Source: Alphaproteobacteria bacterium (GTDB taxonomy: Bacteria > Pseudomonadota > Alphaproteobacteria > JAAEOK01). Taken from it: a DNA stretch of 64,000 nucleotides. The notes under the pieces were generated by a model. The model saw only the letters and a list, made by a program, of their open reading frames with translations. It did no database searches and was not told the origin of the DNA. Position 1 is the first letter of the stretch; each line of letters begins with the position of its first letter. The stretch is from the NCBI GenBank assembly GCA_024244705.1, contig JAAEOK010000036.1, forward strand, positions 124,001-188,000, written 5' to 3'. A program made the translations under genes and the position numbers. This document shows positions 1,192 to 40,029 of this stretch, piece after piece.

Positions 1192-2934
1192 TTGAAAGCT
1201 TCGCCTCTTACGCCTCTCGTGATCCTTGCGGTCTTGTCCCTGCTGCTGGCGGTGGTGGTGACGGAAACGGTGCTCTATTCCCGCGCTACGCCGGCCAATC
1301 ATCCGGAATGGATTTTGTCCAAGCGGTTGGTACCGTCGGGGGTCATGGGCGGCGCGGAGGCGTTCGAGACGCGCAACCTCCTGCGCAACAACCGGCTCAA
1401 TCTGCACGAGTGGCATGGCTACCATGAGGTGCTGCTCGATCGAATCTTCGCATTGGGAGAACTGCGGGCGCGATTCAAACTGGGTCCCGACGGCTATCTG
1501 ATCGCGATCTTCAACAAGAACGCTGCCGGTTATTCGGGCGTTCGAGTGAGCCGCAATCCGCTTTTTCCGAACCTGTTCTTTCGGGCCACGGACACGGGTG
1601 AATTTCTGGTATCCGAGGCACTGGAGGACGTGGCCGTCGATAACGGTTGGCACGAACTGCACCTGCGTTTCGAAGGCGGCATGCTCGAGGTCTCCGTCGA
1701 TGACCTACGTATCGGCCGGATAGAGGAACCGTCCCAGGATGAACAAGTCATCGGATTGCGGTCGGGCCGGCGCAAGGCTGTCATCGACGACATCGAGGTG
1801 GCCGCTGCCGATGGATCGCAAATCATCGCGGACGATTTTCGCAACCGTCGTGGGTTCTGGACGACTCTGGTGTCGCTTTTTGCATTCCTGTTTCTGGTCG
1901 CCGCCGCAATCTACCTTGCGTCCCGTCGGCGGGGCGGCGACGGCAAGCCGGCGCTCTTTTCGTTGATCATGGTCGAGGCGGTCCTGGCAATTTCGTTTCT
2001 GCTCTATTTCTTGTTCGACTACTACGCCTATTCGAAAAAATATCATTTCAAGACGATGGCGGAGTGGGTTGCGACGACCAACGAGGCTCTGACCGTCGAG
2101 GCCATGCGCCGTTATGTGTTCACCGAGTTTCCCTTTGCCGATTTCGAAGGCGACGGCCTGCGATCCTATTGGCCCGAACGCGTGATCGAGTTCCTCGGAA
2201 TCGACCTCTCGGACGTCGGCAAGAAAAGCTGGTTGACGGTATTCCGCGGGCCGCCCGACCGGCAGGAGGTTGACTTTATCGAGGACAGCCGAGAGGGGGT
2301 AGATTCCTATCTCGGCCGTAATCCGCTCGGTGCGTCGCTCCGAATCCTCCTGCTCGGCACCTCGCAGACCTGGGGTGTTGGGGCCAACGCCGCGGATGAA
2401 AGGATGGCGCCGACGCTGCAGCGCTTTCTATCGCAGCAGCTTGGCCCGGAACATGGGGTCAGTGTCATCAACGCGAGCAAATGGGGGTCTCGTTCGGGCC
2501 CCCTGTTGGACCGCTACAAGAGCCATGCCCGCCTCTTCCAGCCCGACGTGGTCGTCGTCAACCTATCCAACAATGGTAGTGCGGATGGGTTCGCGGAAGA
2601 CCTGACGGAGATGGCTCAAGTCGGCCGGGACATTAGCACCGAGACCGTGTTCGTTCTCGAGGCCAATACCACCGAAGTCGGCAATTTCCTGGGAACCAAG
2701 CACGGCATGATGAGAGCGGTCGCGGCCGCCAACGACATTCCCGTGATCGACCTCCACGGCTATATGTCACAGCCGTCCATCTACGACAGCGGCGTGATCT
2801 GGTGGGATCGTGTTCACATGACATCCTACGGACAGCGTCTCGCGGCGGAGTTCATCGGCCGCGCCATTGTCGAGAATTTCGATTTGCGTGAAACCAGTGC
2901 ATCGGCCCCTGCACCGCCAGATGCAGGGAACTAG
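1192..2934 (+). CDS. Membrane-anchored SGNH/GDSL hydrolase-like protein, tandem copy 1
   Basis: Predicted order: an N-terminal membrane helix (about residues 6-25), a beta-rich LamG/concanavalin-like region (about 50-215, ending in ADDFRNRRG), two more membrane helices separated by a basic loop (RRRGGDGKP), then a C-terminal SGNH-like domain. SGNH blocks seen are GTSQTWGVG (Ser), NLSNN and WWDRVHMTSYG (Asp-x-x-His). Both large domains should face the periplasm. The start is a TTG at 1192, chosen because the protein then aligns residue by residue with copies 2 and 3; ATG 1051 would add about 47 unconserved residues. A role in acylating or deacylating envelope glycans is inference. Confidence 0.75.
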   Translation: MKASPLTPLVILAVLSLLLAVVVTETVLYSRATPANHPEWILSKRLVPSGVMGGAEAFETRNLLRNNRLNLHEWHGYHEVLLDRIFALGELRARFKLGPDGYLIAIFNKNAAGYSGVRVSRNPLFPNLFFRATDTGEFLVSEALEDVAVDNGWHELHLRFEGGMLEVSVDDLRIGRIEEPSQDEQVIGLRSGRRKAVIDDIEVAAADGSQIIADDFRNRRGFWTTLVSLFAFLFLVAAAIYLASRRRGGDGKPALFSLIMVEAVLAISFLLYFLFDYYAYSKKYHFKTMAEWVATTNEALTVEAMRRYVFTEFPFADFEGDGLRSYWPERVIEFLGIDLSDVGKKSWLTVFRGPPDRQEVDFIEDSREGVDSYLGRNPLGASLRILLLGTSQTWGVGANAADERMAPTLQRFLSQQLGPEHGVSVINASKWGSRSGPLLDRYKSHARLFQPDVVVVNLSNNGSADGFAEDLTEMAQVGRDISTETVFVLEANTTEVGNFLGTKHGMMRAVAAANDIPVIDLHGYMSQPSIYDSGVIWWDRVHMTSYGQRLAAEFIGRAIVENFDLRETSASAPAPPDAGN

Positions 2935-3042
2935 ACGCCTGCGCAGGCTACCGAATAACCGGCGTTCGGCTGGCGCCGGGTTGTGGCCGCGTATCCTTTC
3001 TTGTAAGGCGACTTCCAATTGCAACGGCCGAATTGGTGCCCC

Positions 3043-4785
3043 GTGAGAGTTCCGTTGTTCACACCCCTTGTGATTCTCGCGCTCTTGTCATTGCTGCTGG
3101 CGGTGGTGGCGACCGAGACGGTGCTCTATTCCCGCAATACGCCGGCCCATCATCCGGAATGGGTCCTGTCCAAGACACTGGTATCGGGTCCGTTGATGGG
3201 CGACTGGGAATCCGTCACAACGCGCAACGTCTTACACAGGAACCGCCTCAGGCTGAATGAGTGGCACGGGTTTCAGGAAATCCTGCTCGACAAGGTCACT
3301 GCGCTAGGCTCACTCCACGCCCGCTTCATGCTGGGAGCCGGGGGCTACCTGACCGCGATTTTCAACAAAGATGCTGCCGGCTATGCGGGCGTGCGGGTCA
3401 GCCGCAATCCGCTGTTTCCAAACCTATTTTTTCGCGCGTCGGACAAAGGCGAATTCATCGAGACGTTGCCCCTCGGCGACATCCAGATCCATGACGGGTG
3501 GCACGATCTCGATCTGCGTTTCGATAGCGGCAGGCTTCAGGTTTCCGTGAACGACGAGGTTATCGGCGAGATTGCGGTAACTTCCCGCGGCGAGCAGGTC
3601 GTCGGGCTTAGGTCGGGTCTTCATTTGGCCTCGATCGACAATGTCGAGGTCAGAGCCGCCGACGGGACTCTCCTCATCGCCGAAGACTTTCGCAACGACC
3701 GAGGTTACTGGGCCACCCTGTTCGCGCTTTTTGCGGCGGCATTCTTGACCGTCACCGCGATCTACGTGGCCTCACGTCGACGGGGCCGTGATGGGAAGCC
3801 GACACTGTATTCTTTGATCTTGATCGAGGCATTCCTCACGGTCGTGTTCCTGCTCTATTTTCTGTTCGACTATTACCACTACTCGGAATTCTACTACGTC
3901 AGGAAGAACCCCGACTGGAAAGTGATTCCGGAGAGCACCACGCAGTTGGAGGTGGCGCGGCAGTACATTTTCACGGAACTCCCGTTTGTCGATCTCGAGA
4001 AACGCGACCTGCTGTCTCGTTGGCCCGGACGTCTAATCCAATTCCTGGAGGCCGACCCGGATGACAATGAATCGCATAGTTGGCTCAAAGTGGCGCGGGG
4101 GCCGGTCGGCCGGCAGGAACTCGATCCGATCGATGATAGTCAAGAAGGCGTCGAGGCCTATCTCGGCCGGAAGCCTCTCGATATCTCGACCCGAATTCTC
4201 TTACTCGGAACATCGCAGACTTGGGGCGTTGGTGGTGGCGCGAGGAATGAGCGGATGGCACCGATGCTGCAGCGGGCTCTGTCGGGTCAGCTTGGCCCCG
4301 ACCACGAGGTTGCCATCATCAACGCGAGCAGATGGGGCTCTCGTTCCGGTCCCCTGTTGGATCGCTACCGAAGCCATCTCCACCTGTTCCGGCCCGATAT
4401 CGTCATCGTCAATTTGTCCAACAACGACGCCACCGAAGGGTTCGCGGAAAAGCTGACGGAGATGGTCGAGTTCGGCCGGAACATCGGCGCCGAGACGCTG
4501 TTCGTGCTCGAGGCCAACAGCAGCGAGGCTGGCGATCGACTGAGCGTAAGACATGAAATAATGCGAAACGTCGCATCCGCCAACGATGTTCCGGTGGCTG
4601 ATCTACATGGTATTATGAACGATCCCGAGGTCTACGACACCGGAATCATTTGGTGGGACCGCATTCATATGACCTCCTACGGACAGCGTTTGGCGGCCGA
4701 ATTTATCGGCCATGCCGTGCTCGAGAATTTCAAGCTGGGTGATGAAACGCCGCCGTCGGCCGCCCCATCGGGCACGGGCGACTAG
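3043..4785 (+). CDS. Membrane-anchored SGNH/GDSL hydrolase-like protein, tandem copy 2
   Basis: Paralogue of the neighbouring genes with the same order: membrane helix (about 6-24), beta-rich LamG-like region ending in AEDFRNDRG, two membrane helices, and a periplasmic SGNH-like domain with GTSQTWGVG, NLSNND and WWDRIHMTSYG. The start is a GTG at 3043, matched to the N-termini of the other two copies; a TTG at 3019 would add eight residues. It is separated from copy 1 by about 110 bases. Substrate unknown. Its last 60 or so bases are almost the same as those of copy 3. Confidence 0.75.
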   Translation: MRVPLFTPLVILALLSLLLAVVATETVLYSRNTPAHHPEWVLSKTLVSGPLMGDWESVTTRNVLHRNRLRLNEWHGFQEILLDKVTALGSLHARFMLGAGGYLTAIFNKDAAGYAGVRVSRNPLFPNLFFRASDKGEFIETLPLGDIQIHDGWHDLDLRFDSGRLQVSVNDEVIGEIAVTSRGEQVVGLRSGLHLASIDNVEVRAADGTLLIAEDFRNDRGYWATLFALFAAAFLTVTAIYVASRRRGRDGKPTLYSLILIEAFLTVVFLLYFLFDYYHYSEFYYVRKNPDWKVIPESTTQLEVARQYIFTELPFVDLEKRDLLSRWPGRLIQFLEADPDDNESHSWLKVARGPVGRQELDPIDDSQEGVEAYLGRKPLDISTRILLLGTSQTWGVGGGARNERMAPMLQRALSGQLGPDHEVAIINASRWGSRSGPLLDRYRSHLHLFRPDIVIVNLSNNDATEGFAEKLTEMVEFGRNIGAETLFVLEANSSEAGDRLSVRHEIMRNVASANDVPVADLHGIMNDPEVYDTGIIWWDRIHMTSYGQRLAAEFIGHAVLENFKLGDETPPSAAPSGTGD

Positions 4786-5007
4786 ATGCTACTGCGCCCA
4801 TAGCCGAGCAAGCGGCCGTCCGACGTCGTTCGGTTGTCTTGGCCTGTCGCACCGCAGATCCATGATTCGATTCGGTGCCTGCCGTTTCGGGTTCCGCGAG
4901 GAATCCAACGCCGACTCACCCCTATGGCGGTGTCAGATACTCCGGTTGCGGCCACGGGTTCGATGTTGTACGGCAATTAACCACTTCGCCAGCCAAAGTG
5001 TCCTCCT

Positions 5008-6750
5008 TTGAGACCCTCGCCGTTTATACCCCTCGTCATTCTCGCGACATTGTCCCTGCTGCTTGCGGTGGTGGTGACCGAGACGGTGCTCTATTCCCGC
5101 AATACGCCGGTCCATCATCCGGAATGGGTCCTGTCCAAGCTCCTGGTGCCGGGAGACCTCATGGGGAGCGCGGAGAGTTTCGAGACACGCAACCTCCTGC
5201 GACGGAACCGCCTCAATTTGAATGAGTGGCACGGGTTTCAGGAAACCCTGCTTGACCGGATTGTTGCGTTGGGATCGTTGCGCGCGCACTTTTCGCTGGG
5301 TTCCGAGGCCTATTTAATCGCGATCTTCAACAAGAACGCCGCCGGTTATTCGGGCATCCGGATCAGTCGCAATCCGCTTTTTCCGAACCTGTTCTTCAGG
5401 GCGGCGGACGAGGGCGGATTCATCGAGACGCTGCCGCTCGAGTCATTTCCAATCGATGGCGGCTGGCACGAGCTGGACCTGCTCTTCAAAGACGGCACGC
5501 TTCATGTTTCCGTCAACGATGAGGCGATTGGCGAAATCGAAGAATCGTCCCTCGACCAGCAGCTCGTCGGATTGAGATCAGGTCGCCACACGGCGCTGGT
5601 TGACGAAATCGCAGTGGTGGCGGACGACGGCACCCTCATCATCGCGGAAGACTTTCGGAATCGTCGCGGGCTCTGGACGACCCTGCCCTTGGTATTTGCG
5701 GCCACATTCTTGATCGCCGCCGCGATCTATCTAGCGTCGCGCCGACCGGGGCGCGATGGCAAGCCGGCGCTTTTTTCAATAATCCTCATCGAAGTGTTTC
5801 TTGTCATCGTATTCCTGTTCTATTTCCTGTTCGATTACTACCATTATTCGGAAAATTACTACTACGAATACAACCCGGACTTTGCTGAGATACCCGCGAA
5901 CAAATTGCGGTTCGAGGCGGCGCGCCAGTACCTGTTCACGCAACTGCCATTCGTCGATTTTGAGAATGACGACCTGGTGTCCCACCGGCCCGAACAAGTG
6001 GTTCAGTTCCTCGGGGCCAATCCTTCGGACGAAGGCGCGACGAGTTGGCTAAGAGTGGTGCGCGGGCCGACCGGCGGGCAGGAAATCGACCCGATCGAGG
6101 ACGATCGCGAAGCCATAGAGGTCTACCTCGACCGCAAACCCCTCGATTCCGCCATCCGAATTCTGGTGCTCGGGTCGTCGCAGACGTGGGGGGAGGGCGC
6201 CAAAGCGACGGACGCAAGGATCGCGCCGACGTTGCAGCGGATTCTTTCGCAGCAGCTTGGCCCGAAACATAGTATCGCCGTGGTCAACGGTGCCCGAAAA
6301 GGCACGCGTTCTGGCCCATTGTTGGACCGTTACCGAAGCCACCTCTTCCTTTTCCGGCCCGATATCGTCGTCGCCAATCTGTCGAGCAACGACCGCGGCA
6401 ACGCGTTCGCCGGAAACTTGGCCGAAATCGTCGAAATGGGCCGGGACATTGGCGCCCAAACACTGTTCGTCCTCGAGGCCAATAGTATTGAGCAAAATGA
6501 GTCGATAAGGAGCAATCACGAGACGATGCGGGAAACTGCCGCCTCCATCGATGTCGCGTTGGTCGACCTGAACGGTTACTTGGCTCATCCATCGGTTCGT
6601 GACAGCGGCATCATCTGGTGGGATTTCGTCCATCTGACGTCTTATGGACAGCGTTTGGCGGCGGAATTTATCGGCCGCGCCTTGTTCGAGAATTTCAAGC
6701 TGGGTGATGAAACGCCGCCGTCAGCCGGCCCATCCGGCACCGACGACTAG
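5008..6750 (+). CDS. Membrane-anchored SGNH/GDSL hydrolase-like protein, tandem copy 3
   Basis: Third paralogue. Helices and domains are arranged as in copies 1 and 2. SGNH blocks read GSSQTWGEG, NLSSND and WWDFVHLTSYG, so the putative catalytic Ser and Asp-x-x-His are kept, with small substitutions around them. It starts at a TTG (5008) placed exactly as in copy 1, preceded by the similar AAGTGTCC stretch, and neither shows a Shine-Dalgarno sequence. About 220 bases separate it from copy 2. It converges on the gtrA-like gene with a 3-base gap between stops. Confidence 0.75.
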   Translation: MRPSPFIPLVILATLSLLLAVVVTETVLYSRNTPVHHPEWVLSKLLVPGDLMGSAESFETRNLLRRNRLNLNEWHGFQETLLDRIVALGSLRAHFSLGSEAYLIAIFNKNAAGYSGIRISRNPLFPNLFFRAADEGGFIETLPLESFPIDGGWHELDLLFKDGTLHVSVNDEAIGEIEESSLDQQLVGLRSGRHTALVDEIAVVADDGTLIIAEDFRNRRGLWTTLPLVFAATFLIAAAIYLASRRPGRDGKPALFSIILIEVFLVIVFLFYFLFDYYHYSENYYYEYNPDFAEIPANKLRFEAARQYLFTQLPFVDFENDDLVSHRPEQVVQFLGANPSDEGATSWLRVVRGPTGGQEIDPIEDDREAIEVYLDRKPLDSAIRILVLGSSQTWGEGAKATDARIAPTLQRILSQQLGPKHSIAVVNGARKGTRSGPLLDRYRSHLFLFRPDIVVANLSSNDRGNAFAGNLAEIVEMGRDIGAQTLFVLEANSIEQNESIRSNHETMRETAASIDVALVDLNGYLAHPSVRDSGIIWWDFVHLTSYGQRLAAEFIGRALFENFKLGDETPPSAGPSGTDD

Positions 6751-20225: not shown

Positions 20226-21863
20226 ATGTTGCGTGGGCAGATGATGGACCGGCCGCTGTTGATCAGTTCATTGATCAAGTATGCGGCGGATTACCAGGGC
20301 GACGTGGAAGTTGTTTCGCGTACGGTCGAAGGGCCGATCCATCGCTACACCTACTCCGATTGCCATCGCCGCGCCTGCCGGGTCGCCGGAGCGCTGCGCC
20401 GGCTCGGCGTCGAGCCCGGCGATCGCATCGCGACGCTGGCGTGGAACGGGTACCGGCACCTCGAGCTCTATTTCGGCGTCTCCGGGATGGGCGCCGTGCT
20501 GCATACCGTCAACCCGCGCCTCTTCGCCGACCAGATCGAATACATCGTCAACCACGCCGAGGACAAATACGTCTTTCTCGATGTGACCTTCGTGCCGCTG
20601 CTCGAGCCGTTCGCCGAAATGTTCACCTCCGTGCGCGGCTATGTCGTCATGACCGACCGCGCGAACATGCCCGAGACCACCCTGCCCAACGCGTTGGTCT
20701 ATGAGGAATTGCTTTCCGCCGAAAAGGACGATCACGACTGGCCCGAGTTCGATGAAAATGCCGCCGCGTCGCTGTGCTACACATCGGGTACGACATCCAG
20801 ACCCAAGGGTGCGCTGTACAGCCACCGGTCGACCGTCCTGCACACCTATTCCATCTGTCTGGTGGAGGCGCTCGGCCTTTCCAGCGGCCACGCGGTATTG
20901 CCGGCGGTACCGATGTTTCACGCCAATGCGTGGGGGATCCCCTATGGTTGCGCCCTGACCGGCAGCAAGCTCGTCCTACCGGGTCAGCACTATGACGGCG
21001 AATCGATGTTCGACCTGCTCGAGAACGAAGGTGTGACGATCACCGCGGGCGTGCCGACGATCTGGCAGATGTTGATCGAGCATATGCGAGCGACCGGCAA
21101 GTCGTTCAGCCGGCCGCCGTTGGTCTTGATCGGCGGTGCCGCCGCCCCGCTGTCGATGATCCGGGCATTCGAGGAGGAATTCGGCTGCGACACCCGGCAT
21201 GCCTGGGGGATGACCGAGATGAGTCCGGTCGGCACCTCGGGCCATCTCAAGCCGAGATTGCTTGGCCTGCCCAAAGAGGAGCAATACGCGTACAAGGCCA
21301 AGCAGGGCCATGCCATCTACGGCGTCGACCTCAAGATCGTCGACGACGACGGCAAGGAATTGCCGCATGACGGCGAGGCCTTTGGCGAGCTCTTGGTGCG
21401 CGGTTCCTGGATCATCGATTCCTATTTCAAGGACGAGGATGCGACGGCGGCCGCTTTCGATGACGAGGGTTGGTTCCGCACCGGCGACGTCACGACGATC
21501 GACCCGGATGGCTATATCCACATCGTCGACCGCAGCAAGGACGTGATCAAATCCGGCGGCGAATGGATCAGCTCGATCGATCTCGAGAACATCGCCACCG
21601 GCCATCCCGATGTCGCGCAGGCCGCTGTGATCGGGATCGCTCATCCGAAGTGGGGCGAGCGCCCGTTGTTGATTGTCGTCGCCGCCGGAGATCGCCAGCC
21701 GACGCGCGACGAAATCCTCACGTTTCTCGATGGCAAGATCGCAAAATGGTGGATGCCCGACGACGTCCAGTTCGTCGATGCCTTGCCGTTGACCGCGACC
21801 GGCAAGATCTCGAAATTGCAACTGCGTGAGATGTTCAAGGACTACGCCTTGCCGACGGCATGA
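20226..21863 (+). CDS. Long/medium-chain fatty-acid-CoA ligase
   Basis: 545 residues. P-loop [55 protein letters not shown] and the C-terminal [12 protein letters not shown] show a FadD/AlkK-like acyl-CoA ligase. The ATG has an AGGGAG site nine bases upstream. Its stop overlaps the livG start (ATGA), so ligase and transporter are translationally linked, which suggests the transporter substrate is a carboxylic acid that is activated on entry. Chain-length preference cannot be read from the sequence. Confidence 0.92.
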
Positions 21864-30102: not shown

Positions 30103-31107
30103 GTGACCGAAACCGTGCCCGTCATCGATTTAACGCCCTTGATCAAGGGCGCGGATGATGCCGGTTGCGATGGCGTCGCCGGCGAGATTGCCGATGCATG
30201 CCGGCATTGGGGTTTCTTCCAGGTCGTCAATCACGGCATTCCCCGGCCGCTGATCGATCGCGTGTGGCAGCAAACCATCGCCTTCTTCGACCTGCCGCTC
30301 GCCGAAAAGCGGAAGCTGCTGCGCACCAAGGACAATCCGCGCGGCTATTACGATCGCGAGCTGACCAAGAACGCCCGCGACCTCAAGGAGGTTTTCGATT
30401 TCGGTCTCGATCCTTTTCCCGACTTGCCCAGCGACCATCCGGCCAATCACCTGCCGGTGGATGGGCACAACCTGTGGCCTTCCAAGCTGCCGGATTTCCA
30501 GCCGACCATGAGCGAATACTTCAGGTCGTGCGACCGATTGGGCCACCGGCTCCTGGAGATGTTCTGCCTCGGTATCGGCGCCCCGCGAGATCGTCTCGAC
30601 GCCTATTTCGGCCACGACCACACCAGCTTCGTCCGCCTCAACTATTATCCGCTCGAGGACCCGCTCGAGCCGGACCAGTCGGCGCAGGTCACCGCGCTCG
30701 GCGACATGGCACTGCACCACCATACCGATGCCGGCGTGCTGACGATCCTGCTACAGGATGAGGTTGGCGGCCTGCAGGTGTTCTCGCGCGGCGCGTGGTG
30801 GGATATCGCACCGATCGACGGCGCCATGGTCATCAATATCGGCGACATGATGCAGGTGTGGTCGAACGACGCGTATCCGGCGGCCTTGCACCGGGTGAAG
30901 TCGGTCACCGACCGTCCGCGATACAGCCTGCCGTTCTTCTTCAACCCGTCCTACGCCACCGATTGCGCGCCGCTCGAGCCGTTGATCACCGCCGAGGGGC
31001 CCCATTACCGCCCGATCAATTGGGGCCATTTCCGCCAGCTCCGCACCGACGGCGACTACGCCGATTACGGCAAGGAAGTACAGCTCGACGATTTCAGGCT
31101 GGTGTAG
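30103..31107 (+). CDS. 2-oxoglutarate/Fe(II)-dependent oxygenase (isopenicillin N synthase-like)
   Basis: About 334 residues. N-terminal DIOX_N region PVIDLTPL and CRHWGFFQVVNHGIP; iron ligands in HHHTDAGVLTIL (His-x-Asp) and distal His in AALHRVKSV; the 2-oxoglutarate Arg in RYSLPFFFNPS. It hydroxylates, desaturates or cyclises a small substrate. GTG 30103 has GGAG eight bases upstream; GTG 30094 is the alternative. The gene sits between the thiolase and the NRPS-like enzyme on the same strand, so it may act with either. Confidence 0.9.
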   Translation: MTETVPVIDLTPLIKGADDAGCDGVAGEIADACRHWGFFQVVNHGIPRPLIDRVWQQTIAFFDLPLAEKRKLLRTKDNPRGYYDRELTKNARDLKEVFDFGLDPFPDLPSDHPANHLPVDGHNLWPSKLPDFQPTMSEYFRSCDRLGHRLLEMFCLGIGAPRDRLDAYFGHDHTSFVRLNYYPLEDPLEPDQSAQVTALGDMALHHHTDAGVLTILLQDEVGGLQVFSRGAWWDIAPIDGAMVINIGDMMQVWSNDAYPAALHRVKSVTDRPRYSLPFFFNPSYATDCAPLEPLITAEGPHYRPINWGHFRQLRTDGDYADYGKEVQLDDFRLV

Positions 31108-31248
31108 CACCGGAATTGATAACGGCGGCGCGGCTGCGGGTTCCAGGAGCCGGTTGCGTGCGCTGCGCCATTGGCGCACCATCGGATGGGCGAGCCGCGA
31201 TCATGCCGCTGCACCCGGTGAGCGTTCGTCATCCAGCGAAGCGAGCCC

Positions 31249-33891
31249 GTGATGGGTCAGGATGTCCGACGATTCCTCAAGACGACGGGTTTCGTTCCCT
31301 TCCATAGGGACGCGATCGAAAGCTCTATACCGGAAATCTTTGCCCGCCAGGTGCGCGCCGCGCCCGACCGGTTCGCCGTCCGTTGCCGGCGGACCAGCCT
31401 CACCTATGGCGAGCTTGACAGAAAAAGCAGCCTCATCGCCCACGCCATTCTCGACCGCCTCGGCCGCGGTAACGAGCCTGTCGGGCTGCTGTTCGGGCAG
31501 GGGGATGCGGCGGTTGCGGCGATCCTCGGCGCCCTCAAGGCCGGCAAGATCTATGTCGCCATGGACCCGGCCTGGCCGGCCGACGACCTGCGCCGGGTCG
31601 TCGCCGATTGCCGCCCGCGTTTGATTCTGACCGCCGGGGAAATCCGAAATTTGGCGTTGGATCTCGCCGGCGCCGCGGATCGCTGGCTGGACGTCGAGGA
31701 GATCCGACCCGGCACACGGGACGATGACCCCGAACTCGAAATCGCGCCGGCGGATACCTGTTACATCTACTACACCTCGGGCAGCACAGGCCTACCCAAG
31801 GGTGTCTACGACAGTCATCGAAACGTCCTCCACAACGTGATGCGATACACCAACAGCCTCGGCATCGGCCCTGCCGATCGCTTGTCGCTGATCCAGTCGC
31901 CGGCCTTCAGCGGTACCGTGTCGACCCAGTTTTCGGCGCTGGCGAATGGTGCCGCGCTGTTTCCGTTCGACCTGCATCGCGCCGGCATCGGGCGGCTGGC
32001 CGACTGGATTGCCGATGAAGGCGTCACGATCTTCCACTCGGTCCCTGCCATTTTCGAGAGCCTCATGGCAACCGGTCGCAGCTTCGACAGCTTGCGCATC
32101 GTTCGCCTCGAAGGCGACCGCGCGGAACGGCGCCAGATTGCTCTTTTTCAGGAGCGTTTCGGCGATCGGTGCATCCTGGTCAATGGATTGGGCGCGACCG
32201 AGACCGGGCTCGCGCGGCAGTATTTCATTGGTTCGAAAAGCCAACTCCCGGGCGATGTGGTTCCGGTCGGCTACCCGACCGACGACATGATCGTGCGTGT
32301 CGTTGACGATGACGGCGCCGAGGTGCGGCGAGACGACATCGGCGAGATCGCCGTCACCAGCCCCTATCTGGCGCTGGGCTATTGGAACCGCGCCGAGAAG
32401 ACCTCCGAGGCGTTCACGACCGAAGCCCGGTCAGAGAGCGAGTGGACCTACCGCACCGGCGATCTCGGCCGGATGGGCGACGACGGTTGCCTCGAAGTTC
32501 TCGGTCGAAAAGATTTTTGCCCCAAGCTCAATGGCCGCCGGATCGACATTCCGGCGATCGAAGCGGCGCTGCATCGCCTCCCGGCCATAGAGCAGGCGGT
32601 GGTCGCGGTCGACGGAAACGGGCACGGCGGGCAACGCCTCGTCGCCTATATCGTGGCCTCCGGCGCCGGGCCGGCGGTCGGGGCCATGCGGCGCGCGCTC
32701 GCCGATTCCTTGCCGCCCCACATGATACCCAATCGCTATCTCTTCATCGATGACCTGCCCCTCGACCGCAACGCAAAAGTCGACCGCCGCAGGCTACCGG
32801 CCGCTCCGTCGTCACGCCCCAAGCTGGAGGAGCCTTTCGTCGCCGCGCGAGGCGCGGTCGAGGAGGCGATCGCGGCGTGTTTTTGTGAGGTGCTATATAT
32901 CGACTCCGTCGGCGCCGACGACGATTTCTTCGATCTCGGGGGCGATTCGCTGTTGTACTTGGAACTCCTGACCCGGATCGAGCAGCGCTTCGAGATGTCC
33001 ACGTTGCCCGACATCCCCGGGGAGCGCTTTACCGTATCCACGTTCGCCCAATCGGTGAACGGGGGAGGCCGATCGACCACGTTGGTTCCGTTCCGCAGCG
33101 GCGGAACGGGGCCGGCTCTGTTCTGTATGCACAACCATCCCGGCAATATTCCGGAATACCGCCGCCTCGCCGCCCGCCTGGCGACCGCTCGGCCGGTCTA
33201 CGGGCTGCAGCGCATCGGCGCTCCCGACAGGGGGTTCGAAGTGCTCGAAATAGAGGATCATGCCGAGATATTTGTGCGGGAAATCTGTGCCCTTCAGCCC
33301 GACGGCCCCTATCATTTGTGCGGCAATTGCTTCGACGGCGTGGTTGCGTTCGAAGTAGCGCGGCAGTTGCAAGGGCTGGGCCGAGAGATGGGAAAGGTGA
33401 TCCTGGTCGACACTGCGTTTCCAGCCCGTGACCCTGGCGCCATCGGGCAGCAGTGGCGCAATCACCACTTCTGGCGATGGTTCGCCGCCCGCCCTTTTGA
33501 CGAGCAACTCGCTTTTCTAGGCCGCCGCGTGAGAGGCATCGGAAATTTGTCGGTCCGCGCGATCGCGGGGCGATTGCCGGGCACCGGGAAGCAGGCGCGG
33601 GAGAGCGATGCCGATGACGGCGGCGGGTTCCGCTCCAATGCGATTGCCGCCCATAAAGCGGCGCTCCGGCGCTATCGCCCGCGGCCCTACGATGGCGAGA
33701 TCACGCTGATCTGTCCGGGACCCCCGCACAATCAGCGCGGTTGGGCGAAGGTCGCCGACCGCGGGCTGTGCGTTCGCGAGATTCCGGTCGGTCGCGACGT
33801 CGGCGGCCGGAAGTTCGAGATGCCCCATCTGACGGCGGACCCGTATCTGACGCCATTGGCGGCCCTGATCGACGAAATTCTCGACGCCTGA
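31249..33891 (+). CDS. NRPS-like A-T-TE enzyme with cysteine-type thioesterase
   Basis: About 880 residues, no condensation domain. Adenylation domain (about 20-510): YYTSGSTGLPKGV, NGLGATETGLA, YRTGDLGRM and the C-terminal lysine in PLDRNAKVDRRRL. Carrier domain: DDFFDLGGDSLLYL with phosphopantetheine Ser about 567. Thioesterase domain (about 620-880): the nucleophile elbow reads CGNCFDG, giving Cys694 in place of Ser, and a final HL near the C-terminus may supply the His. The usual FDxS amino-acid-recognition motif is replaced by FSGT, so the substrate may lack an alpha-amino group. The start is GTG 31249 or ATG 31252. Product unknown. Confidence 0.88.
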   Translation: MMGQDVRRFLKTTGFVPFHRDAIESSIPEIFARQVRAAPDRFAVRCRRTSLTYGELDRKSSLIAHAILDRLGRGNEPVGLLFGQGDAAVAAILGALKAGKIYVAMDPAWPADDLRRVVADCRPRLILTAGEIRNLALDLAGAADRWLDVEEIRPGTRDDDPELEIAPADTCYIYYTSGSTGLPKGVYDSHRNVLHNVMRYTNSLGIGPADRLSLIQSPAFSGTVSTQFSALANGAALFPFDLHRAGIGRLADWIADEGVTIFHSVPAIFESLMATGRSFDSLRIVRLEGDRAERRQIALFQERFGDRCILVNGLGATETGLARQYFIGSKSQLPGDVVPVGYPTDDMIVRVVDDDGAEVRRDDIGEIAVTSPYLALGYWNRAEKTSEAFTTEARSESEWTYRTGDLGRMGDDGCLEVLGRKDFCPKLNGRRIDIPAIEAALHRLPAIEQAVVAVDGNGHGGQRLVAYIVASGAGPAVGAMRRALADSLPPHMIPNRYLFIDDLPLDRNAKVDRRRLPAAPSSRPKLEEPFVAARGAVEEAIAACFCEVLYIDSVGADDDFFDLGGDSLLYLELLTRIEQRFEMSTLPDIPGERFTVSTFAQSVNGGGRSTTLVPFRSGGTGPALFCMHNHPGNIPEYRRLAARLATARPVYGLQRIGAPDRGFEVLEIEDHAEIFVREICALQPDGPYHLCGNCFDGVVAFEVARQLQGLGREMGKVILVDTAFPARDPGAIGQQWRNHHFWRWFAARPFDEQLAFLGRRVRGIGNLSVRAIAGRLPGTGKQARESDADDGGGFRSNAIAAHKAALRRYRPRPYDGEITLICPGPPHNQRGWAKVADRGLCVREIPVGRDVGGRKFEMPHLTADPYLTPLAALIDEILDA

Positions 33892-39003: not shown

Positions 39004-40029
39004 ATGATGGATGAAAAGGACGCCCGTCCGCACCACGGCGGCGGATTGGATGCGGTCAGGCCATTGAAGACATCGCGGGGCGATGCCTGGATCGACCTGT
39101 CGACGGGAATCAATCCCTGGCCCTATCCGCTGCCCAAGATAGAATCCGCGGCCTGGCACCGCCTTCCCGGCGTCGAGCTTTTGGAGGCGGCGCTGGACGC
39201 CGCCCGGTCCTGCTATGGCGCTCCCCAAGACGCCCGGCTCGTCGCGGCGCCGGGTTCGCAGGCACTCATCCAGTGGCTGCCGTGGCTGCGATCACGCGGC
39301 CGCGTGGCCGTCTTGGGTCATACCTATGGCGAGCATGCCTATTGCTGGGGTCAAGCGGGTCATGACGTGGCCGTCGTCGACGATCTCGGGGATGCGATCA
39401 GGACGGCGGATGTCGTTGTGGTGACTAATCCGAACAATCCCGACGGGCGTGTCCGAGCCCCGGCAGAGCTGCGCGAGGCCGCGGTTCTGCTGGCCGCGCG
39501 CGGCGGCTGGCTGATCGTCGACGAGGCCTTCGCCGATCTGCAACCCGATTGCTCGCTTGCGTCGGCGGCCGATACCCCCGGCGTTTGCGTGCTGCGATCG
39601 GTCGGCAAGTTTTTCGGACTGGCCGGCTTGCGGCTCGGCTTCCTGATCGGCGCCCAGGATATCGCCGACCGCGTCGAAGCGGCGCTCGGCCCGTGGGCGG
39701 TCAGCGGCCCCGCGCTCGCCATCGGTTCGCGGGCCCTCGGCGATCGCGCTTGGATCGACAAGACGCGCGCGCGGCTGTCGGACGCGGCCGCTCAATTGTC
39801 GTCTCTTCTCGATGCGGCCGGATTCGAGGACATCGGCGGAACCAGCCTGTTCCGCCTGGTGGCTCACGAACGCGCGGCGGCCATTCATGACGGATTGCTC
39901 GGGGCGGGCATTCTGGTGCGGAACTTTCCCGAACAACCGCGCTGGCTGCGGTTCGGGCTACCGGCCAGCGGCCGCGAGCGGACCCGATTGGAGCGGAGCC
40001 TGGCGGCAATTATCGGCCCTCAGTCATGA
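39004..40029 (+). CDS. cobC: L-threonine-O-3-phosphate decarboxylase
   Basis: 341 residues, PLP fold-type I. Seen: HHGGGLDAV, LSTGINPWPYP, NPNNPDGR, DEAFADL and the PLP lysine in RSVGKFFGLAGLRLGF. It makes (R)-1-amino-2-propanol phosphate for the cobalamin nucleotide loop. It is divergent from cbtBA and lies upstream of the riboswitch, so its own transcription is not under that element. The naming follows the Pseudomonas/Rhizobium scheme (CobD in enteric bacteria). Confidence 0.92.
   Translation: MMDEKDARPHHGGGLDAVRPLKTSRGDAWIDLSTGINPWPYPLPKIESAAWHRLPGVELLEAALDAARSCYGAPQDARLVAAPGSQALIQWLPWLRSRGRVAVLGHTYGEHAYCWGQAGHDVAVVDDLGDAIRTADVVVVTNPNNPDGRVRAPAELREAAVLLAARGGWLIVDEAFADLQPDCSLASAADTPGVCVLRSVGKFFGLAGLRLGFLIGAQDIADRVEAALGPWAVSGPALAIGSRALGDRAWIDKTRARLSDAAAQLSSLLDAAGFEDIGGTSLFRLVAHERAAAIHDGLLGAGILVRNFPEQPRWLRFGLPASGRERTRLERSLAAIIGPQS

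Follow-up and report, generated by a model that had tools for sequence, protein, structure and literature searches.

Several described systems come close to a stand-alone protein with an adenylation (A), a carrier (T) and a thioesterase (TE) domain. In synthetases of the ralfuranone and quinone type (RalA, EchA, the fungal atromentin and polyporic acid synthetases) the TE joins two aromatic α-keto acids. RalA comes from a plant pathogen. By the literature, these enzymes share the A-T-TE order, lack a condensation (C) domain and miss the Asp that corresponds to Asp235 of PheA. PacP (pacidamycin, A-T-TE0) is a stand-alone A-T-TE tridomain as well. CmaA/CmaE and SyrB1/SyrB2/SyrC pair an A-T didomain with a TE-like acyltransferase, and the syringomycin pair also works with a 2-oxoglutarate (2OG) enzyme.

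The nucleophile of a TE can be a Cys. The termination modules AB3403, ObiF1 and SulM carry it in a GxCxG elbow. All three contain C domains, and their substrates are amino acids. Two ring-forming Cys TEs have been studied structurally, ObiF and SulM, and both have their triad Asp at position II (PMC11298585, PMC6668435).

Here we compare these systems with an A-T-TE protein encoded in a stretch of 64,000 nucleotides of alphaproteobacterial DNA (the window). The protein is a rare one-module enzyme: its general type is familiar, but this variant is little known. With a confidence slightly above even, we read it as a free-standing NRPS-like synthetase that adenylates a non-α-amino, most likely polar acid, loads it onto its carrier, moves it to Cys693 and releases it through the TE.

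The substrate class, the release chemistry and the activity of the carrier domain, as we infer them, would be the following. The A domain would adenylate a carboxylic acid without an α-amino group, most likely of the α-keto, α-hydroxy or dicarboxylic type. The acid would be loaded onto Ser566 of the protein's own carrier domain, and the acyl group would then move to Cys693 of the TE. The TE would release it either by handing it to an acceptor or by coupling two acyl units, with no hand-over to an elongating module.

Domain content and genome setting

AMP-binding, AMP-binding_C, PP-binding and Thioesterase are the sole Pfam domains of the protein (Table 1). Pfam finds no condensation domain in it, just as the original prediction had claimed. 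The combination of A, T and TE in one chain without a C domain is that of NRPS-like A-T-TE enzymes. Carrier Ser566 and the catalytic Lys509 of the A domain are both present and are invariant among the three homologues discussed below. The frame of 880 codons is intact. GC content and codon use are host-like, on which ground we rejected a recent acquisition in the window genome. A promoter scan gave no signal exceeding chance.

Table 1. Features of the A-T-TE gene and the adjoining oxygenase gene. Positions refer to the window. Residues are numbered from ATG 31252 unless stated otherwise; the Cys694 of the original prediction (counted from GTG 31249) is Cys693 here.
Feature	Position	Strand	Remarks
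2OG-Fe(II) oxygenase, IPNS-like	30103..31107	+	DIOX_N and 2OG-FeII_Oxy (Pfam)
A-T-TE synthetase gene	31252..33891	+	879 aa from ATG 31252; 880 aa if the start is GTG 31249
Adenylation core PF00501	31339..32385	+	Pfam E=3.2e-61; residues 31-379 counted from GTG
Ser220 in PAFSGTVS, position of PheA Asp235	31909..31911	+	alignment
Arg285-Leu-Glu287, pocket positions 299 and 301	32104..32112	+	invariant in three homologues
Ala315 replacing the YGPTE Pro	32194..32196	+	compare StsA Met415 (PMC11253843)
AMP-binding C-terminal subdomain; invariant Lys509 corresponds to K517	32557..32778	+	
Carrier (T) domain; phosphopantetheine Ser566 in GGDSL	32866..32997	+	
Thioesterase domain	33079..33888	+	Pfam match covers the N-terminal half
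Cys693 in nucleophile elbow CGNCFDG	33328..33330	+	
Asp720, triad Asp at position I	33409..33411	+	
His859, probable triad His	33826..33828	+	

The host genome encodes several carrier-domain proteins, yet we detected no condensation domain (PF00668) in it, and AcpS was the sole PPTase. The assembly consists of 127 contigs and is 96.7% complete with 4.4% contamination, so that both absences are strong, though short of absolute. As no C domain is detectable in the genome, release or transfer of the acyl group must fall to the TE alone. As AcpS is the only PPTase found, formation of the holo-enzyme and its activity are not assured.

The gene block around the A-T-TE gene holds acyl-CoA ligases, a branched-chain-type ABC transporter, a FadJ-like protein, a thiolase, an SDR and two pimeloyl-CoA-dehydrogenase-like genes. 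Cobalamin genes follow. We rejected membership in a conserved β-oxidation operon: in eight relatives (thiolase identity 70-74%), neither the oxygenase nor an A-T-TE gene adjoins the thiolase. A FadJ-like gene directly adjoins the thiolase in two of the eight.

Elsewhere in the window, the acyl-CoA ligase at 20226-21863 scores above the NCBIfam cut-off for 3-(methylthio)propionyl-CoA ligase. Three tandem genes at 1219-6750 encode proteins of 566-571 aa with a C-terminal GDSL-type lipase domain; their GC content is 0.58-0.60, compared to a window average of 0.64.

The adenylation pocket

Motif alignment yields the pocket code SGSHREGLAK. The Asp235 column holds Asp in at least 90% of a 38-sequence alignment, and Ser220 in our protein. 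Hence FSGT does stand where amino-acid-activating domains have FDxS, and the Asp that binds the amino group is missing, as originally proposed. The code SGSHREG(L/I)xK occurs in all three homologues, which have lost Asp235 and kept Lys517. All three also have a replacement of the Pro in YGPTE (A/L/A). Among the fetched domains, which are related sequences and hence give non-independent counts, 211 have both Asp and Pro, 40 the Asp alone, 17 the Pro alone and 20 neither.

In the keto-acid A domain StsA, both Asp235 and the YGPTE Pro are replaced, as Ser220 and Ala315 replace them here; hydroxy-acid domains and McyG likewise lack the Asp (PMC11253843, a review). The α-keto-acid A domains of StsA and CesA resemble ours in these two replacements (shown in StsA). 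They differ in their codes: SGSHREGLAK matches none of the keto-acid codes (VGMWNG.., GIFWLG..) of PMC5238615. Their modules differ as well: they have an embedded ketoreductase (PMC4455996), and none was found in the A-T-TE protein.

The loss of both Asp235 and Pro, compared with StsA, the hydroxy-acid domains, McyG and the listed codes, makes a non-amino acid the likelier substrate. Judged from the pocket residues, the substrate is probably an acid without an α-amino group. The invariance of Arg285 and Glu287 further suggests a polar pocket.

Alternatively, the enzyme may activate an amino acid after all, with another residue such as Glu287 (position 301) binding the amino group and the TE hydrolysing or cyclising the product. 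The amino-acid domain McyG works on L-Phe despite lacking the Asp (PMC11253843), the three homologues share Glu287 and Arg285 without exception, and the pocket is rearranged in some β-amino-acid A domains. However, β-amino-acid domains retain the Asp, and in our protein the changes at Asp235 and at the YGPTE Pro, typical of non-amino substrates, occur together. We regard an amino-acid substrate as unlikely. The original prediction had also asked whether the pocket Asp is supplied elsewhere. There is no obvious acidic replacement, but Glu287 keeps this possibility alive.

A non-amino acid could also be aromatic, with the TE joining two aromatic α-keto acids as in the ralfuranone and quinone synthetases. 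The A-T-TE order, the absent Asp235 and the dispensable C domain all match, and bacterial members, RalA and EchA, exist (PMC10316625). Code position 5 does not match: it is Ile/Val or Asn in the quinone synthetases (PMC10316625), but Arg285 in all three homologues. Nor is there a transaminase partner that could supply a keto acid: CobD (39004-40029), 5 kb downstream, is the closest aminotransferase. On this comparison of domain order, pocket code and partner genes, an aromatic keto-acid synthetase seems rather improbable.

The thioesterase and its cysteine

We return to the non-α-amino acid and its release. Foldseek matches the protein over its full length, ~900 columns, to the NRPS termination modules EntF, AB3403, ObiF1 and SrfA-C. 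In the AlphaFold2 model (mean pLDDT 80.7), Cys693 lies where strand 687-692 turns into helix 694-708. Asp720 (Cys+27) comes after the following strand and His859 before the final helix; the TE lid, residues ~735-795, is poorly modelled. A sequence search of the PDB gives AB3403, and the alignment places Cys693 on its elbow GGWCFGG. The predicted strand-turn-helix and the AB3403 alignment agree on a Cys at the nucleophile elbow CGNCFDG. Looking for the failure that the original prediction had allowed for, a Cys off the elbow, we found Cys693 on it.

The Cys alone does not make the protein rare. We rejected this idea since 19 TE domains have a Cys at the elbow in a non-random sample, the 75 TE domains of the fetched relatives. 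AB3403, ObiF1 and SulM have it in the same GxCxG context as the A-T-TE protein, which differs from all three in having no C domain. The predicted Cys-Asp-His triad also separates our protein from PacP, whose TE lacks a triad (PMC8748450).

Cysteine TEs had raised the suggestion of strained-ring formation. In ObiF and SulM it goes with a Cys nucleophile, an Asp at position II and a Gly at position I. The A-T-TE protein has the Cys (C693), but its Asp720 is at position I. A triad Asp at position I is common to the A-T-TE protein, EntF and AB3403 (for AB3403: PMC11298585). Thus the Cys nucleophile stands, but the different placement of the triad Asp in ObiF and SulM weakens the case for a strained ring.

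The host genome also encodes a stand-alone carrier-thioesterase didomain (L145:6856-7962, + strand). It has a Ser elbow, GYSIG, and adjoins a DctM-type transporter gene.

Homologues and the adjoining oxygenase

One other genome of the same class carries two close homologues (48% and 43% identity); no close homologue was found in the other sampled genomes. A scan of genome contigs gave no match above 37% identity. A second class-level genome sample, centred on G230, returned the same matches again, and the order of genome G007 contains G007 alone. A plasmid search gave none above ~33% identity among the matches listed. We did not accept the annotated plasmid homologues with more than 90% coverage as true relatives: they are much larger multidomain NRPS with an identity of ~30%.

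Both close homologues keep the S/G/T pocket residues and the elbow Cys. Their conservation at 48% and 43% identity goes beyond chance. The family does not keep the TE triad throughout, because one homologue (L017, 697-3363, - strand) has lost the equivalents of Asp720 and His859. Its position I is occupied by Gly, an Asp lies near position II, and the His is absent; judged from these residues, its thioesterase is possibly altered or inactive.

In the A-domain tree the three homologues group with a support of 100. They belong to a clade of seven (support 96) with two A-T-LpxL-like fusions from the host genome and two A-T-C proteins from another genome. All seven lack Asp235 and the YGPTE Pro; the neighbouring DAMHVGG domains keep both. 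The fusions (L143:6066-8852 and L144:3158-6013, both on the - strand) have open frames of 929 and 952 aa. They look like AlmE, AlmF and AlmG combined in a single protein. AlmE, however, retains the Asp (PMC11253843), which the fusions lack. The A-T-C proteins, from genome G230 (L150:5941-9444, + strand; L151:2-3118, - strand), lack Asp235 and have an Arg at position 299.

The protein could belong to a small clade of adenylating enzymes without a C domain. They would load acids lacking an amino group onto a carrier and hand these straight to acceptors, through a Cys TE in our protein and through LpxL-like acyltransferases in its two sisters from the host genome. Lipids or other molecules would then be decorated with unusual acyl groups without peptide elongation. 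We offer this as a speculation that is unlikely to hold.

The family is distributed patchily. In the other genome the homologue genes have a GC content of 0.56-0.57, compared to 0.61-0.65 in their short flanks. Both observations, together with AcpS as the only PPTase found in the host genome, would fit a decaying or inactive acquisition, a protein that is made but not phosphopantetheinylated. We consider this highly improbable, given an intact 880-codon frame with host-like codon use in which the core A motifs, the carrier Ser and the Cys-Asp-His triad are retained.

A 2OG/Fe(II) oxygenase gene does precede the A-T-TE gene on the same strand, as the original prediction had stated; the spacing is 144 bases. 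The oxygenase motifs HTD (207-209), His263 and RYS (273-275) are intact. Hence a cassette like CmaA/CmaE or SyrB1/SyrB2/SyrC is conceivable, in which the oxygenase hydroxylates the tethered substrate and the Cys TE passes it on or releases it. CmaE-type enzymes indeed shift aminoacyl groups from carrier to carrier (PMC8748450).

However, no second carrier or C domain lies nearby. The TE is fused in-chain, and the oxygenase, separated by those 144 bases, is of the DIOX_N/IPNS-like hydroxylase type. Its linkage to the A-T-TE gene is not conserved either. The comparison rests on homologue L009, since the contig of L017 is too short. L009 has no oxygenase beside it; its flanks, labelled by reading translations, are a fragment of an AraC-type regulator (C-terminal part) upstream and a lepA-like gene downstream. 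The genome with both homologues, a fragmented assembly, has no close oxygenase match at E<=1e-50. With no oxygenase beside L009, no close match in that genome and neither gene beside the eight thiolases, the adjacency of oxygenase and A-T-TE gene is seen just once.

We therefore dropped the partnership as unsupported, and with it the small joint pathway originally proposed. The search for A-T-TE homologues with both a Cys and an oxygenase returned two that keep the Cys, but no oxygenase adjoins L009. A cassette is very unlikely, and the oxygenase probably stands outside the A-T-TE function.

Our preferred reading remains a free-standing synthetase for a non-α-amino acid. A single enzyme of this A-T-TE size and layout can yield a complete product, which makes such enzymes easy to express and test. 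Together with a Cys TE and a genome without a detectable C domain, a pocket code outside the listed keto-acid codes would point to a substrate and a release chemistry beyond those of characterised A-T-TE enzymes.
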